Origin: an uncultured bacterium | GTDB lineage: Bacteria; Bacillota; Clostridia; Oscillospirales; Oscillospiraceae | Length of the DNA stretch: 56,681 bases | Direction: 5' to 3' | NCBI GenBank assembly: GCA_946548895.1 | Contig: CAMNQF010000017.1 | Location: 1 to 56,681 of the forward strand | Shown here: positions 36,843 through 42,448 of the stretch, in pieces | How positions within the stretch are numbered: the stretch's first letter is position 1 | Layout: the number at the start of each line of letters is the position of its first letter | The notes under the pieces: model-generated | Seen by the model: the letters and a program-made list of their open reading frames with translations, nothing else | Database searches by the model: none | What the model was told of the DNA's origin: nothing | Position numbers and translations under genes: made by a program

Positions 36843-39407
36843 TTATGTTCCGCCGATGGCCTGCCGGATGTCCGCCTCCACCTGCCGGAGCTCAAACTCC
36901 AATTCAGCGGCGGACATACGCACCGCCCCGTGGCCCAAAATAATCATCTGTTCCAGGCCGTCGGAGGTGGCCACCCGCACCCGGTGCTCCCGGCGGTCCC
37001 GGGCCAGGGCGTAGGTGGTCTTTTCGATATACATATCCGCCGTCTCCGCCTCCTTGGTGTACACCACGAAGAGGTCCCCCAGCCGGTCCACGCTGCCCGG
37101 GTTCCCCTTCACCTTGTAGGCGTCGAACACCACGATGACCTTGCACCGCTTCCAGCCCTGGTAGTTGCGCAGCCGGTGGATCAGCCGCTCCCGGGCGCTG
37201 TCCAGGTCCTCCCGGCCCAGGGCCCGCAGGCCGTCCCAGGCGTGGATGATGTTGTAGCCGTCCACCAGCAGGTAGTCGTCCCCGTCCCGGGTTTTGAGCC
37301 CCTTCCAGGGTCTGGGCTTGGGCGGGGCGCTCTTCCGCACCGGGCGGAAAGCGTGGGGCTTCACCGGGCCATAGGCCCGCTCGAAGATGGCCTCCAGCTC
37401 TTTGTCCAGCGCCGCCCGGGACTCGTAGCTCATGGCCTCCCGGCGGGCGGGGGCGGCGTCCCCAGCGGTTTCCGCCCCGGCGGGCCGCCAGCCGCTGTCC
37501 AGGTGCATATGGTCCCGCACCTGGTCCCAGGGCACATTGAACCCCGCCCCGTGGGCGCAGAACACCGAGCCGGAGGGGTTGTCCACGTCCCGGTCCGGGT
37601 CGTAGCCCCGCTCCGCTATGACGGCCTGGGTATTGTGGCAGGGGCGGTAGCCCTCCACCTCGCAGGAAAACCGCCCCCGCCCCCCGGTGTAGGCCGCCAC
37701 CTCCGACCAGTAGCCCCCCGTCTCGGACACCGGGACGGCGCCGGCAATCACCGCCGTCTCCCCCAGGTCCTCCGGGGGGCCGAACTCCGCCCCCATGCGC
37801 TGGAGGTCAGTCATGGCCCGGCCCACGCAGCCTGTGGGCGCCTCCAGCCGGAAGGAGTACCAGGGCTCCAGCAGGACGCTCCCGGCGCACATCAGCCCCT
37901 GGCGCACCGCCCGGTAGGTGGCCTGGCGGAAGTCGCCCCCCTCGGTGTGCTTCAGATGGGCCCGGCCCGTCAGCAGGGTGATCTTCATGTCGGTGATGGG
38001 GGACCCGGTGAGCACCCCCAGGTGGGTCTTTTCCATCAAGTGGGTGAGGATGAGCCGCTGCCAGTGGCCGTCCAGCGCGTTCTGGTCGCAGGCGGTGTCC
38101 AGCACCAGCCCCGCCCCCCGCTCCAGGGGCTCCAATAGCAGGTGCACCTCCGCATAGTGGCGCAGGGGCTCGAAGTGGCCCACCCCCTCCGCCGGGGCGG
38201 CGATGGTCTCCAAATACACGATGCGGCCGGGGCCGAAAGCTGCCCGGACCCCGAACCGCCGCTCCAGCAGCCGGGACAGCACCTCCAGCTGCACCTCCCC
38301 CATGAGCCGCAGCTGGATCTCCCCCAATGTCTCGTTCCACTCCACCTGGAGCTGGGGGTCCTCCTCCTCCAGCTGGCGCAGCTGGCCCAGCAGGGTGTGG
38401 ACGTCCCCCCCTTCCGGGGGCAGCACCTGGCAGGCCAGCACCGGCTCCAGCTGGGGCCCCTCCCAGTCCTCCTCCAGGCCCAGGCCCTGGCCCGCCCGGG
38501 TGCGGCTCAGTCCGGTCGCGGCGCACACCGTCCCCGCCGGGGCCTCGTCCGCCGGGGTGAACTTCGCCCCGGAGTACAGCCGGAGCTGGGTGGCCTTCTC
38601 CTCCCAGCCCGGGCCCCTCACCACGTCCCGCACCCGCAGCGCGCCCCCGGTGACTTTCAGCCAGGTGAGCCGCTCCCCCTTGCCGTCCCGGCTGATTTTG
38701 AACACCCGGGCGGCAAAATCCGATCCCCAGTCCGGCTCCAGGGCAAAGCGGTCCAGGCCGTCCAGCAGGGCGTCCACCCCCTCCACCCGCAGCGCCGAGC
38801 CGAAGTAGCAGGGGAACAGCTTCCGCCCCACAATGAGGGCGGACAGGTCCCCGTCCTCCAGCGTCCCCGCCTCCAGATACCGCTCCATCAGCTCTTCGCC
38901 GCACAGCGCCGCCTGTTCCAGCACCTGCTCCCAATCCCCGGAAAAATCGGCGCAGCCGTCGGACAGCCGGGCGCGCAGCTGCGCCAGCAGCCGCTCCCGG
39001 TCCGTGCCCGGCTGGTCCATCTTATTGACGAACAGGAAGGTGGGCACACGGTGCCGCGCCAGCAGCCGCCACAGGGTTTCGGTGTGGCCCTGGACCCCGT
39101 CCGGCCCGCTGACCAACAGCACGGCGTAGTCCAGCACCTGCACCGCCCGCTCCATCTCGGCGGAAAAGTCCACGTGGCCGGGGGTGTCCAGCAGGGTGAG
39201 CTGGCTGTCCCCCCAGGTGAGCCGCGCCTGCTTGGAAAAAATGGTGATCCCCCGCTCCCGCTCCTGCTGGTCGGTGTCCAGGAAGGCGTCGCCGTGGTCC
39301 ACCCGGCCCAGGCGGCGCACCTCCCCGGCGCGGTACAGCACGGCCTCGGACAGGGTGGTTTTGCCCGAGTCCACGTGGGCCAGCATCCCGATGGTCAGCC
39401 GCTTCAT
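36843..39407 (-). CDS. Tet(M)-like translation GTPase fused to a Rae1/YacP-type NYN endoribonuclease
   Basis: An 854-aa two-part protein. Residues 1 to about 650 are an EF-G/Tet(M)-type ribosomal-protection GTPase: G1 AHVDSGKT (10-17), G2 RGITI, G3 Asp74-TPGH, G4 Asn128-KMD. Later domains read like Tet(M) (LLEPWYSFRLEAPTGCVGRAM; GGYWSEVAAYTGGRG; GSVFCAHGAGFNVPWDQV). After a basic Pro/Lys linker (about 655-705), residues 710-854 are a complete NYN domain of the Rae1/YacP family. It has LLVDGYNIIHAW (D716), VVFDAYKVKGN (D762), YTKEAETADMYIEK (D791) and VATSDGLEQ (D816) with GAVRMSAAELEFEL. Rae1 cuts mRNA in the ribosomal A site, the same site that Tet(M) enters, so a ribosome-targeted nuclease is plausible. 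ATG 39407 follows GAGGAGA by 7 nt; 46 nt after recG. Confidence 0.92.
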   Translation of the reverse strand: MKRLTIGMLAHVDSGKTTLSEAVLYRAGEVRRLGRVDHGDAFLDTDQQERERGITIFSKQARLTWGDSQLTLLDTPGHVDFSAEMERAVQVLDYAVLLVSGPDGVQGHTETLWRLLARHRVPTFLFVNKMDQPGTDRERLLAQLRARLSDGCADFSGDWEQVLEQAALCGEELMERYLEAGTLEDGDLSALIVGRKLFPCYFGSALRVEGVDALLDGLDRFALEPDWGSDFAARVFKISRDGKGERLTWLKVTGGALRVRDVVRGPGWEEKATQLRLYSGAKFTPADEAPAGTVCAATGLSRTRAGQGLGLEEDWEGPQLEPVLACQVLPPEGGDVHTLLGQLRQLEEEDPQLQVEWNETLGEIQLRLMGEVQLEVLSRLLERRFGVRAAFGPGRIVYLETIAAPAEGVGHFEPLRHYAEVHLLLEPLERGAGLVLDTACDQNALDGHWQRLILTHLMEKTHLGVLTGSPITDMKITLLTGRAHLKHTEGGDFRQATYRAVRQGLMCAGSVLLEPWYSFRLEAPTGCVGRAMTDLQRMGAEFGPPEDLGETAVIAGAVPVSETGGYWSEVAAYTGGRGRFSCEVEGYRPCHNTQAVIAERGYDPDRDVDNPSGSVFCAHGAGFNVPWDQVRDHMHLDSGWRPAGAETAGDAAPARREAMSYESRAALDKELEAIFERAYGPVKPHAFRPVRKSAPPKPRPWKGLKTRDGDDYLLVDGYNIIHAWDGLRALGREDLDSARERLIHRLRNYQGWKRCKVIVVFDAYKVKGNPGSVDRLGDLFVVYTKEAETADMYIEKTTYALARDRREHRVRVATSDGLEQMIILGHGAVRMSAAELEFELRQVEADIRQAIGGT

Positions 39408-39453
39408 CACACATTCTCCTCACGGCGGTCTCTCCGCCTGTTTGTAATACCGC

Positions 39454-41532
39454 TCAATGAAATAACTCCGCGTTTTCGTCAAACAGCTGCCGCACCCGCT
39501 TTTTCAGCAGGCGGTGGGCGGGCTTTTTCAGCTCCGGGTCGGCGGCGACCAGCTCCGCCGCCGCCGCCTGGGCCTCCTTCAGCAGCTCCATGTCGGCGGC
39601 AAAGTCGGCCACCTTCAGCTGCGGCAGGCCGTGCTGCCGCTTGCCGAAGAAGTCGCCGGGGCCCCGGAGCCGCAGGTCCTCCTCCGCGATCTGGAAGCCG
39701 TCGTTGGTGGCGCACAGGGCCCGCAGGCGCTCCCGGGCGGCCTCGCTGCGGCTGGACGTCATGAGGATGCACCAGCTCTGGTGCTTCCCCCGGCCCACCC
39801 GGCCCCGGAGCTGGTGGAGCTGGCTCAGGCCAAACCGCTCGGCGTTCTCAATAATCATGAGGGAGGCGTTGGGCACGTCCACCCCCACCTCGATGACGGT
39901 GGTGGACACCAGCACGTCCACCTCCCCCCGGTGAAAGGCGGCCATCACGTCCTCCTTCTCCTTGGGCTTCAGCCTGCCGTGGACAAGGCCCACCCGCAGG
40001 TCGGGGAACACCCGCTCCCGGAGCTCCCTGGCGTAGGCGGTGACGGCTTTCAAGTCCATGCCGGGGGCCTCCTCCCAGCCGCCGCCCCCGTTCTCCTCCA
40101 CCGCGGGGCACACGATATACACCTGCCGCCCCTCGCCCACCTGCTTGCGGACGTAGCCGTACATCCGCTGCCGCTTGTCCTCCCCCACCAGCCGGGTGGA
40201 CACCGGGGTGCGGCCGGGGGGCAGCTCGTCCATGATGGACACGTCCAGGTCGCCGTAAATGATGAGGGCCAGGGTCCGGGGGATGGGGGTGGCGGACATG
40301 ACCAGGACATGGGGCGGGGTTCCCTGTCCCTTCTCCGCCAGGGCGGACCGCTGGGCCACCCCGAAGCGGTGCTGCTCGTCGGCGATGACCATGCCCAGGT
40401 CACGGTACTCCACCCCCTGGGAGAACAGGGCGTGGGTGCCCACAAGGAGGTCGATCTCCCCCGCCGCCAGCGCCGCCAGCAGGGCCTTGCGCTCCTTCCC
40501 CTTCACCGACCCGGTGAGCAGGGCCGTCCGCACCCCGGCGGGGCCCAGCAGGGCCTCCATGGTCCGGGCGTGCTGCTCCGCCAACAGCTCGGTGGGGGCC
40601 ATCAGGGCGCACTGAACCCCGCTTTTCGCCGCCGTCCAGGCCCCGAAGGCGGCCACCGCCGTCTTGCCCGAGCCCACATCCCCCTGGACCAGCCGGTTCA
40701 TGGCCCGGCCGGACCGCAGGTCGGCGGCGATGCCGTCCATAGCCCGGCGCTGGGCCCCCGTGGGGGCGAAGGGCAGCAGGGCGGCGAACTCCTCCACATT
40801 CCCCGCCAGCACCCGGCCCGCGCTCTGATCCCGCCTGCCCTTCAGCTGGGCCAGGCCGCAGGTGAGCACAAACAGTTCCTCAAACACCAGCCGCCGCCGG
40901 GCCATGGCCAGCTCCTCAAAGGAGGCGGGCCAGTGGATGTTTTTCCGGGCGAACTGGGTCTGGCACAGCCGGTGATCCTTCCGCACCTGGGCGGGGAGCG
41001 CCTCGGGCAGGCCGTCCAGGCACCCGTCCACCGCCCGGCGGGTGAGCCCCGCCATCAGGTTGTTGGAAATGCCCGCCGTCAGGGGATACACCGGCAGGAT
41101 CACCCCCGTGTACCGGCCCGCCCCCTCCCGCTCGAAGGCGGGGTTGGTCATGAAAAGCTGGTTTCCCTGCCGCTCCACCGTGCCGTAAAACACGTAGCTG
41201 TCCCCCCGGCGGAGCACCTCCCGGATGTAGTCCTGATTAAAAAAGGTGATGGTCACCAGATCCGCGCCGTCCGCCGCCTTCACTTTCACCAGGGACAGCC
41301 CCCGGCGGATATAGCTCACCCGGGGCGTCTCCGCGATCATGGCGGTGACGCAGCAGGGCTGGCCCTCCGGCGCGTCCCGGAGGGCATGGCTCTCCCGCCG
41401 GTCCTCGTAGCGCTGGGGCAGGTGGTCTAGCGTGTCCCCCAGGGTGCGCAGGCCCAGTTTTTCCAGCCGTTTGGCCCGCTGGGGCCCCACCCCCGGCAGC
41501 TCAATCAGCGGGGTATCCCGCGTCAGCGGCAT
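39454..41532 (-). CDS. recG: ATP-dependent DNA helicase RecG
   Basis: Reverses and rescues stalled replication forks, 692 aa. N-terminal wedge domain with helix-hairpin motif LPGVGPQRAKRLEKLGL and an OB-fold around residues 60-160. The helicase core has Walker A GDVGSGKTAVAAFGAW, motif II IADEQHRFGVAQR (DEQH), motif III MSATPIPRTLAL, and motifs V/VI TTVIEVGVDVPNASLMII and QLRGRVGRGKHQSWCIL. The C-terminal TRG-type wedge helix follows. ATG 41532 fits AAGGTG 6 nt upstream; the longer open frame runs through the divergent promoter region. The Tet(M)-NYN gene follows after 46 nt, so the two may share a transcript. Divergent from the SpoIIQ-like gene. Confidence 0.96.
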   Translation of the reverse strand: MPLTRDTPLIELPGVGPQRAKRLEKLGLRTLGDTLDHLPQRYEDRRESHALRDAPEGQPCCVTAMIAETPRVSYIRRGLSLVKVKAADGADLVTITFFNQDYIREVLRRGDSYVFYGTVERQGNQLFMTNPAFEREGAGRYTGVILPVYPLTAGISNNLMAGLTRRAVDGCLDGLPEALPAQVRKDHRLCQTQFARKNIHWPASFEELAMARRRLVFEELFVLTCGLAQLKGRRDQSAGRVLAGNVEEFAALLPFAPTGAQRRAMDGIAADLRSGRAMNRLVQGDVGSGKTAVAAFGAWTAAKSGVQCALMAPTELLAEQHARTMEALLGPAGVRTALLTGSVKGKERKALLAALAAGEIDLLVGTHALFSQGVEYRDLGMVIADEQHRFGVAQRSALAEKGQGTPPHVLVMSATPIPRTLALIIYGDLDVSIMDELPPGRTPVSTRLVGEDKRQRMYGYVRKQVGEGRQVYIVCPAVEENGGGGWEEAPGMDLKAVTAYARELRERVFPDLRVGLVHGRLKPKEKEDVMAAFHRGEVDVLVSTTVIEVGVDVPNASLMIIENAERFGLSQLHQLRGRVGRGKHQSWCILMTSSRSEAARERLRALCATNDGFQIAEEDLRLRGPGDFFGKRQHGLPQLKVADFAADMELLKEAQAAAAELVAADPELKKPAHRLLKKRVRQLFDENAELFH

Positions 41533-41569
41533 CCCAGTCACCTTCTTCGCCTTTGGCAGTTTTTGATAT

Positions 41570-41599
41570 AGTTTACCACACCTTCCCCGTCGAAAACAA
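41570..41599 (-). promoter_or_regulatory. Promoter candidate of recG
   Basis: On the minus strand TTGTTT, 18-nt spacer, TAAACT, about 40 nt before the recG start. Confidence 0.55.
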
Positions 41600-41627
41600 T
41601 CCCCATTGGATTTTTCCCCTCCGGCTG

Positions 41628-41657
41628 GTATAAATTGTAACGCCCCCGTCCACAATA
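41628..41657 (+). promoter_or_regulatory. Forespore-type (sigma-F/G) promoter candidate of the SpoIIQ-like gene
   Basis: GTATA, 18-nt spacer, CACAATA, close to the sigma-G pattern (GHATR, CATnnTA). No sigma-A boxes are apparent in this position. It fits the forespore expression of SpoIIQ. Confidence 0.45.
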
Positions 41658-41674
41658 GGGCCGGAGGTGTTACT

Positions 41675-42448
41675 ATGAACAGCAAACGAACATGGATCGA
41701 AAAGCTAGGCGATTTCATCTCGGGAAAGGGTTTCTATCTTGTGGTACTCATCTGCGTGGCCGCTATCGCCCTGTCCGGCTACTACCTGGTGCAGGGGGTC
41801 CGGGGCGGCCTGGACAGCGCGCTGGACCAGCCGGTGTCCGGCACCGCCGCCATTCCGGGGCAGCCCTCCGCGGCCCCCACGCCCAAGCCGTCGGTGAGGC
41901 CGTCCGCCAAACCCACCGACCCCCCCACCGCCCACTCGGCCCAGACCAGCGCGCCCCCGGCCATCTCCGCCGCCCCCGCGCCCTCCGCCCAGCCCGCCGT
42001 CTCGGCCGCGCCCGTCCCCACCCCGGCCCCCGCCCCCCTGGTCTTTACATGGCCGGTGAAGGGCACGGTCATCGCCGGGTTCTCGGTGGAGGCCCTGGCC
42101 TATGACGAGACTATGGGCGACTGGCGCACCCACGGCGGGCTGGATATCTCCGCCGCCCTGGGCACCCAGGTGCTGGCCGCCGCCAACGGCACGGTGTCCG
42201 CCCTGTACCAGGACGACCTGATGGGCACTGTGGTGGAAATCGACCACGGCCAGGGCCTGGTAAGCCGGTACGCCAATCTGGCCGCCGTGCCCACCGTCCA
42301 AGTGGGGGACAGCGTGACCACCGGGGCAATCATCGGCTCCGTGGGGGAGACCGCCGCCGCCGAGAGCGGCCGTCCGCCCCATCTCCACTACGCCCTGCTC
42401 AAGGACGGGCAGGCCGTAGACCCCGCCGGGTATCTTCCTGAGCGCTGA
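41675..42448 (+). CDS. SpoIIQ-like LytM/M23 peptidase-domain membrane protein
   Basis: A 257-aa bitopic protein: short cytoplasmic start, one helix (about residues 18-40, GFYLVVLICVAAIALSGYYLV), a Pro/Ala/Ser-rich linker (to about 125) and a C-terminal LytM domain. The zinc ligands HxxxD (HGGLD) and HxH (PHLHY) are both intact, unlike B. subtilis SpoIIQ, which lost the first His, but like the clostridial versions. Linker composition and size suit SpoIIQ, which joins SpoIIIAH across the two spore membranes. A possible sigma-F/G promoter is upstream. GGAGG 8 nt before ATG 41675. A vegetative M23 murein hydrolase is the alternative. Confidence 0.8.
   Translation: MNSKRTWIEKLGDFISGKGFYLVVLICVAAIALSGYYLVQGVRGGLDSALDQPVSGTAAIPGQPSAAPTPKPSVRPSAKPTDPPTAHSAQTSAPPAISAAPAPSAQPAVSAAPVPTPAPAPLVFTWPVKGTVIAGFSVEALAYDETMGDWRTHGGLDISAALGTQVLAAANGTVSALYQDDLMGTVVEIDHGQGLVSRYANLAAVPTVQVGDSVTTGAIIGSVGETAAAESGRPPHLHYALLKDGQAVDPAGYLPER

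Follow-up and report, generated by a model that had tools for sequence, protein, structure and literature searches.

The window analysed here, a stretch of 56,681 nucleotides from contig CAMNQF010000017.1 of an uncultured Oscillospiraceae bacterium (GenBank assembly GCA_946548895.1), carries on its minus strand a gene that joins a translational GTPase to a nuclease domain of the NYN_YacP/Rae1 family. The gene comprises 855 codons and a stop in one open frame, and no stop or frameshift lies between the two parts, as claimed in a preliminary description that gave no strand. Residues are numbered from the GTG start (residue 1); the next codon is an ATG, from which the preliminary description counted, giving the span 36843-39407 and residue numbers one lower. 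The source genome is a draft of 116 contigs (95.94% complete), and no second YacP was found in it, so that the fusion is its sole YacP; the absence of a separate rae1 gene had been proposed as a check on this locus.

The GTPase part contained the G motifs AHVDSGKTT, RGIT, DTPGHVD, and NKMD, all intact, and the domain series G and II–V of the EF-G/EF2 family, with domain II slightly below its cut-off (Table 1). The structural alignment covered residues 1–626. The nuclease part matched NYN_YacP (PF05991) with 155.3 bits against a cut-off of 24.6. It contained the acidic residues D717, D763, D792, E796, and D817 and the YTKEAETADMYIEK block, and the four aspartates and this block had been read correctly before (as D716, D762, D791, and D816 from the ATG). 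The NYN model had a predicted local distance difference test score (pLDDT) of 90.6 and resembled 5mq8_A in Foldseek (E 4e-10; template modelling score 0.83/0.72), and the domain matched Bacillus subtilis Rae1 at 2e-24 with 43% identity.

A family-specific element of ~50 residues follows domain V, with the pattern GYxPCHN...GYDPxxD..NPxxSVFCxHGAGF.V.WDxV..YMH, which marks the GTPase family. Its residues C591, Y603, D608, S615, F617, G621, and W628 were invariant, and its Cys and His residues were conserved among 103 distinct fusions (C591 in 103/103, C618 in 101/103, H620 in 97/103, and H636 in 99/103), a sequence pattern that perhaps represents a metal site. The element was not matched to any known domain. 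The linker behind this element was 64–148 residues long in relatives (median 80). Many relatives shared the motif D.EL..IFERTYG, the main predicted helix of an otherwise low-confidence segment and possibly a binding motif.

Table 1 Features of the fusion gene and of the adjoining recG in the window. Residues are counted from the GTG start.
Feature	Residues	Position	Strand	Basis or remark
Whole fusion gene		36843..39410	-	GTG start 39410; alternative ATG start 39407
GTPase (G) domain	4-222	38745..39401	-	Pfam GTP_EFTU 2e-49
Domain II	232-308	38487..38717	-	Pfam EF-G domain II 26.5 bits, just below cut-off 27
Domain III	322-393	38232..38447	-	Pfam EFG_III
Domain IV	396-509	37884..38225	-	Pfam EFG_IV; best conserved domain
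Domain IV tip GRAHLKHTEGGDFRQA	482-497	37920..37967	-	Alignment; occupies place of Tet(O) GLYYSPVSTPADFR
Domain V	512-594	37629..37877	-	Pfam EFG_C
Family-specific C-terminal element	~581-640	37491..37670	-	Overlaps end of domain V
Conserved Cys/His stretch of the element	~585-636	37503..37658	-
Linker	641-712	37275..37490	-	Mostly low-confidence (predicted disordered) in model; poorly conserved
Linker motif	~665-681	37368..37418	-	D.EL..IFERTYG
NYN_YacP/Rae1 nuclease domain	713-851	36858..37274	-	Pfam NYN_YacP 714-851, 1.9e-45
recG		39454..41718	-	Upstream of fusion, same strand, 43-base gap

To compare fused and standalone Rae1, we analysed a phylum sample of 398 genomes, each at least 90% complete. 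A YacP match of any kind was present in 219 genomes and exceeded the Pfam cut-off in 215, lying in a GTPase-length frame in 28 and outside such a frame in 187 (frames mostly of 160–220 residues). None of the 215 genomes had both a fused and a standalone YacP; the two phylum genomes with two matches carried two standalone frames (G498) or two fragments (G591). In the order sample, YacP was found in 101/295 genomes, 99 of which also had the C-terminal element of the GTPase, including one frame-broken copy (G275), and the remaining two were partial (G107 reaches a contig end and G215 has a frame of 78 residues). Because the two forms never occurred together among the YacP-bearing phylum genomes, the fusion, judged by sequence, replaces standalone Rae1 in many Clostridia, and this mutual exclusion fits a ribosome-directed Rae1 function.

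The standalone form was represented by 26 loci, chosen as best-scoring loci and not at random (27 minus L053, which missed the motif filter). Consistent with the earlier remark that rae1 usually lies beside rlmB-type genes, rlmB was within 1.5 kb of standalone rae1 in 25 of the 26 loci; it was within ~5 kb of the fused gene in 0/20 fused loci. In the source genome, rlmB adjoins ftsH and no rae1 is present there. A quick tree of the NYN domains (53 fused, namely the window and every second fused locus, and 26 standalone; 148 columns) separated the two sets by one branch with a Shimodaira–Hasegawa-like approximate likelihood-ratio test (SH-aLRT) value of 100. The GTPase and Rae1 were therefore most likely joined only once, and the simplest history would be one fusion event followed by loss of free rae1.

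The C-terminal element identified the GTPase family in 113/295 order genomes and 34/398 phylum genomes. Members without the NYN domain (633–695 residues, with the C-terminal element kept) were found in 14 of the 113 order carriers and 6 of the 34 phylum carriers, and four of these six phylum genomes had a separate YacP. The GTPase tree held 18 NYN-less rows, of which 14 grouped together and four fell among or beside fused rows, with at least four changes between the two states. Many forks of this tree were unsupported, so that the single origin rests mainly on the NYN tree. As a side observation, two genomes with different family codes (G106, locus L183, and G144, locus L182) carried NYN-less GTPases that were identical in the aligned region, reflecting contamination or recent transfer; G106 also had a second, different one.

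The preliminary description called the GTPase and its C-terminal domains Tet(M)-like, which stood only in part. The best PDB match was TetO (262 bits), but EF-G was nearly equal (254 bits), and residues ~595–640 were specific to the family. In a tree of 19 rows, 13 rows of the GTPase family (93/94, not starred) lay beside a Tet clade of three rows (100/100), and the two shared a node of 91/94 (not starred) that left out EF-G, EF-Tu, and a LepA-like protein; the row L211_own in this tree is an EF-Tu frame in place of an EF-G-like frame. The sequences thus place the family on the Tet side, as a clade adjoining Tet(M)/(O) and not inside it. The GTPase scored below both Tet profiles (tet_protect, NF012153, 398 against a cut-off of 775; NF033148, 271 against 1100) and by score is not a Tet resistance protein. 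Its domain IV tip also differed: the fusions read GRAHxKHTEGGDFRQ, and the Tet-type loop III GLYYSPVSTPADFR was absent. The tip loop YYSPVSTPADFR was found in Tet(O) and in a canonical TetM/TetW/TetO/TetS-family protein that the source genome encodes separately from the fusion (G000 contig C54:8214-10034, locus L209; 1247.7 bits against a cut-off of 1100), with a classical domain IV loop. Other EF-G-sized matches in this genome were taken as EF-G by eye. An NYN-less member of the family, 47% identical to the GTPase of the window, was observed on a 275 kb plasmid of Ligilactobacillus salivarius (NZ_CP062072.1, locus L201) that was typed as mobilizable and has an IS1380 transposase nearby; it is annotated as a TetM/TetW/TetO/TetS resistance protein, yet it scored 381 against the tet_protect cut-off of 775.

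The architecture was widespread. Fused loci were collected from genomes (20), from the best 80 of 591 relatives in GTDB records (the 591 may include NYN-less ones), and from a few further sources, giving 104 fused sequences, 103 of them distinct; the 103 exclude L205 and L159, and L198 was counted as fused with the motif variant DSYN. Carriers include Intestinimonas butyriciproducens, Ruminococcus flavefaciens FD-1, Anaerovorax odorimutans, Fusibacter sp. 3D3, and Neglectibacter sp. X58. Residues D717, N720, D763, D792, E796, and D817 were kept in all 103 distinct fusions; the four aspartates of the preliminary description were also invariant in 21/21 aligned fusions, and the acidic residues were common to fusions and four standalone Rae1s (alignment A4). 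The G motifs, described earlier as intact, proved near-invariant (K17 in 102, T56, D75, G78, and D132 each in 103, and N129 in 96 of the 103). Mean conservation was highest in domain IV (0.80), followed by the NYN domain (0.68), the G domain (0.67), and the linker (0.27). Relative to locus L082, the closest relative (84% identical), the ratio of nonsynonymous to synonymous substitution rates (dN/dS) in this single pair was ~0.30 overall, 0.19 in domain IV (the lowest), 0.21 in the NYN domain, 0.32 in the G domain, and 0.28 in the linker. By these sequence measures, both halves are under purifying selection.

Neighbouring genes were not conserved. The gene recG, which had been noted to precede the fusion, does adjoin it here, where the two are perhaps co-transcribed. 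A direct search of the 103 other fused loci found recG in only two: in L082, a close relative, it again lies upstream, and in L084 it lies ~2 kb downstream. This rules recG out as a conserved partner and makes the adjacency incidental. Among 79 loci, namely the window and 78 loci no shorter than 9 kb, the most frequent neighbour family in the top 22 groups listed was present at 10. No PADLOC anti-phage defence model matched, and a defence role was rejected. No Rfam element was tied to the fusion gene in 10 fused loci, one T-box lying ~1.7 kb upstream in L077, and control by an attenuator or riboswitch was likewise rejected. TATAAT-like boxes occurred 10–80 bases upstream in 62/91 loci compared with 47.5 ± 4.4 in shuffled sequences, a weak signal, and at 160–230 bases upstream in 41/91 loci.

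Full-length fusions were also found in two records labelled as phage (L205, MT835514.1; L218, MT835563.1), both unverified faecal contigs. Six of ten scanned neighbours on the 'phage' records had Pfam matches, including tRNA synthetases, FeoB, and a carbohydrate kinase, although in L218 only two of six did. These recognisable neighbours were of bacterial type; the records are probably mislabelled bacterial contigs, and a mobile or phage gene was rejected. A 'plasmid' copy (H1) sits on a 518 kb Monoglobus record.

The fusion architecture itself has been in print since 2015. Rae1 was reportedly recognized as a ribosome-dependent endonuclease by Leroy in 2017, later than that study by Atkinson. 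According to the 2015 paper (PMC4342817), Tet proteins of ten Clostridiales species carry a YacP-like NYN domain, and the fusion is interpreted there as a possible means of RNase-based resistance or of cutting rRNA. On this description, those proteins very likely belong to the family studied here. No other paper naming a GTPase–NYN fusion was found, preprints and most subscription journals being outside the search. Our study adds that fusion and standalone Rae1 exclude each other in sampled genomes, that the join most likely arose once, that the GTPase forms a clade of its own with NYN-less sisters, that the family is broad, and that domain IV is under constraint.

In view of the exclusion, the single origin, the distinct GTPase clade and its NYN-less sisters, and the constraint on domain IV, a Rae1 delivered by its GTPase is the best reading that can be put to the test. 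We judge the chances to be evenly balanced that the fusion is Rae1, the endonuclease of A-site mRNA, tethered to a translational GTPase of its own that delivers it to vacant A sites, a proposal drawn from sequence comparison and models. B. subtilis Rae1 has been proposed to cut mRNA in the A site (PMC10100781 and PMC6613710), and according to PMC4342817 the domain IV tip loops touch the A site in EF-G and Tet. The GTPase would bring the fusion to the factor site of the ribosome, its GTP form binding ribosomes whose A site is vacant because they are stalled or slow, and domain IV, the most constrained part, would probe the decoding centre. Upon GTP hydrolysis domain IV would withdraw, and the tethered NYN domain, present at high local concentration, could then enter the A site and cut the mRNA, so that the truncated message would be degraded and the ribosome rescued. 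Recruitment to the ribosome, which standalone Rae1 must achieve alone, would thereby fall to the GTPase. Alternatively, the linker may be a simple anchor that raises the local nuclease concentration. Ribosome binding, cutting, and GTP control by the fusion are inferred. A more specific version, in which the protein is a GTP-gated single-protein surveillance nuclease whose cutting is licensed by domain IV as it tests the decoding centre and which replaced free Rae1 in much of Clostridia, is more tentative. The idea of a ribosome-directed nuclease in the preliminary description is thus reasonable; its reference to antibiotic-blocked ribosomes found no specific support, and the evidence favours a housekeeping role in ribosome quality control.

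Several observations weigh against a GTPase-delivered Rae1. NYN-less GTPases, present in 14/295 order and 6/398 phylum genomes, indicate that the GTPase also serves a separate function. Just 4 of the 187 phylum genomes with an unfused YacP have an unfused GTPase, so Rae1 does not generally need the GTPase. The A site would probably be contested between domain IV and a Rae1-type nuclease; as Rae1 too is proposed to act there, simultaneous docking is unlikely and a hand-over likelier, and the long tether would suit either a hand-over after GTP hydrolysis or the simple anchor. The dN/dS of the linker was not above that of the G domain, so this measure separates the parts poorly. The literature search, outside preprints and most subscription journals, found no binding, cleavage, or genetic data on any fusion. 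Finally, the C-terminal end of B. subtilis Rae1, FEKWRRGDLD, in which R166P is among suppressors behaving as rae1 loss of function (PMC6613710) and of which a W164L mutant protein was crystallised, has no WRR counterpart in any of the 103 fusions, and docking may therefore differ from that of B. subtilis Rae1. The absence of WRR would agree with the GTPase having taken over recruitment, but this is suggestive only, because just 16 of the 26 standalone Rae1s have WRR and some Lachnospiraceae fusions have, by eye, a loosely similar tail.

The rival that survives best, although we hold it to be somewhat unlikely, is that the protein combines two independent activities, an EF-G/Tet-like GTPase with its own job and an ordinary Rae1 NYN domain, the GTPase serving at most as a ribosome anchor and GTP hydrolysis not controlling the cutting. 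The NYN-less GTPases, most of them in one clade, the long, variable, and poorly conserved linker, and the usual occurrence of standalone Rae1 without the GTPase all agree with this. Against it, the fusion persists across many families, in no sampled genome together with a standalone Rae1, and NYN-less members make up the minority of GTPase carriers.

It is improbable that the fusion confers tetracycline resistance and has gained an RNase activity in addition, the reading suggested in Atkinson 2015 (PMC4342817). That TetO is the closest solved homologue, that the clade adjoins Tet, and that NCBI names an NYN-less relative as a resistance protein speak for it. The tet_protect score of about half the cut-off and the dissimilar domain IV tip speak against it, even though Tet(M) tolerates some loop III substitutions (PMC4750697); so do the canonical Tet already present in the source genome, the mutual exclusion of the fusion with a chromosomal nuclease, and its unconserved neighbours.

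No better placed is a role in rRNA or tRNA maturation, with the RNase brought to ribosomes or pre-ribosomes; this follows the original proposal for YacP-like NYN domains, as cited in Atkinson 2015 (PMC4342817). The gene so regularly beside standalone rae1, rlmB, encodes an rRNA methyltransferase, in agreement with such a role; however, B. subtilis Rae1 is described as acting on A-site mRNA, and conservation peaks in domain IV, whose tip loops reach that site in EF-G and Tet. A sequence artefact, frame error, or single-strain chance fusion can be dismissed, since each match of the best 80 of 591 relatives starts at or before residue 56 and ends at or after residue 832 and 103 distinct fusions align under purifying selection, with only one copy whose NYN domain is split across two frames (G275:C45:40759-41180, a pseudogene or sequencing error) and one cut or interrupted locus (L159) on the other side.

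In the fusion, the partner of the nuclease has relatives that enter the A site, and many lineages have kept the fused form instead of free Rae1. How Rae1 reaches the A site and on which ribosomes it cuts thereby become addressable in one polypeptide, and the question arises whether GTP hydrolysis or the domain IV tip licenses cutting. The family also bears on annotation, as records label an NYN-less member as conferring tetracycline resistance and give a fusion the generic name 'translation factor GTPase family protein'.

Compared with known systems, the fusion shares with the Tet–NYN proteins of Atkinson 2015 (PMC4342817) the same architecture, in which a YacP-like NYN domain stands behind a Tet-like GTPase, and the occurrence in Clostridiales; in that paper, however, they are described as Tet proteins, with possible RNase-based resistance or action as an rRNA RNase. 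It resembles B. subtilis Rae1/YacP (PDB 5MQ8, 5MQ9) in its NYN fold, invariant acidic residues, and level of identity, but is fused behind a translational GTPase, lies away from rlmB, and lacks the WRR tail. Unlike EF-G, it leaves EF-G residues 158–213 (the G' region) unpaired in the alignment. With Tet(M)/Tet(O) it shares the EF-G-like domain order, a DFR motif that follows the tip of domain IV, and a neighbouring position in the tree, whereas its identity to them is only ~31%, the YSPVS loop is missing, the family score is half the cut-off, and the C-terminal element and NYN domain are extra.

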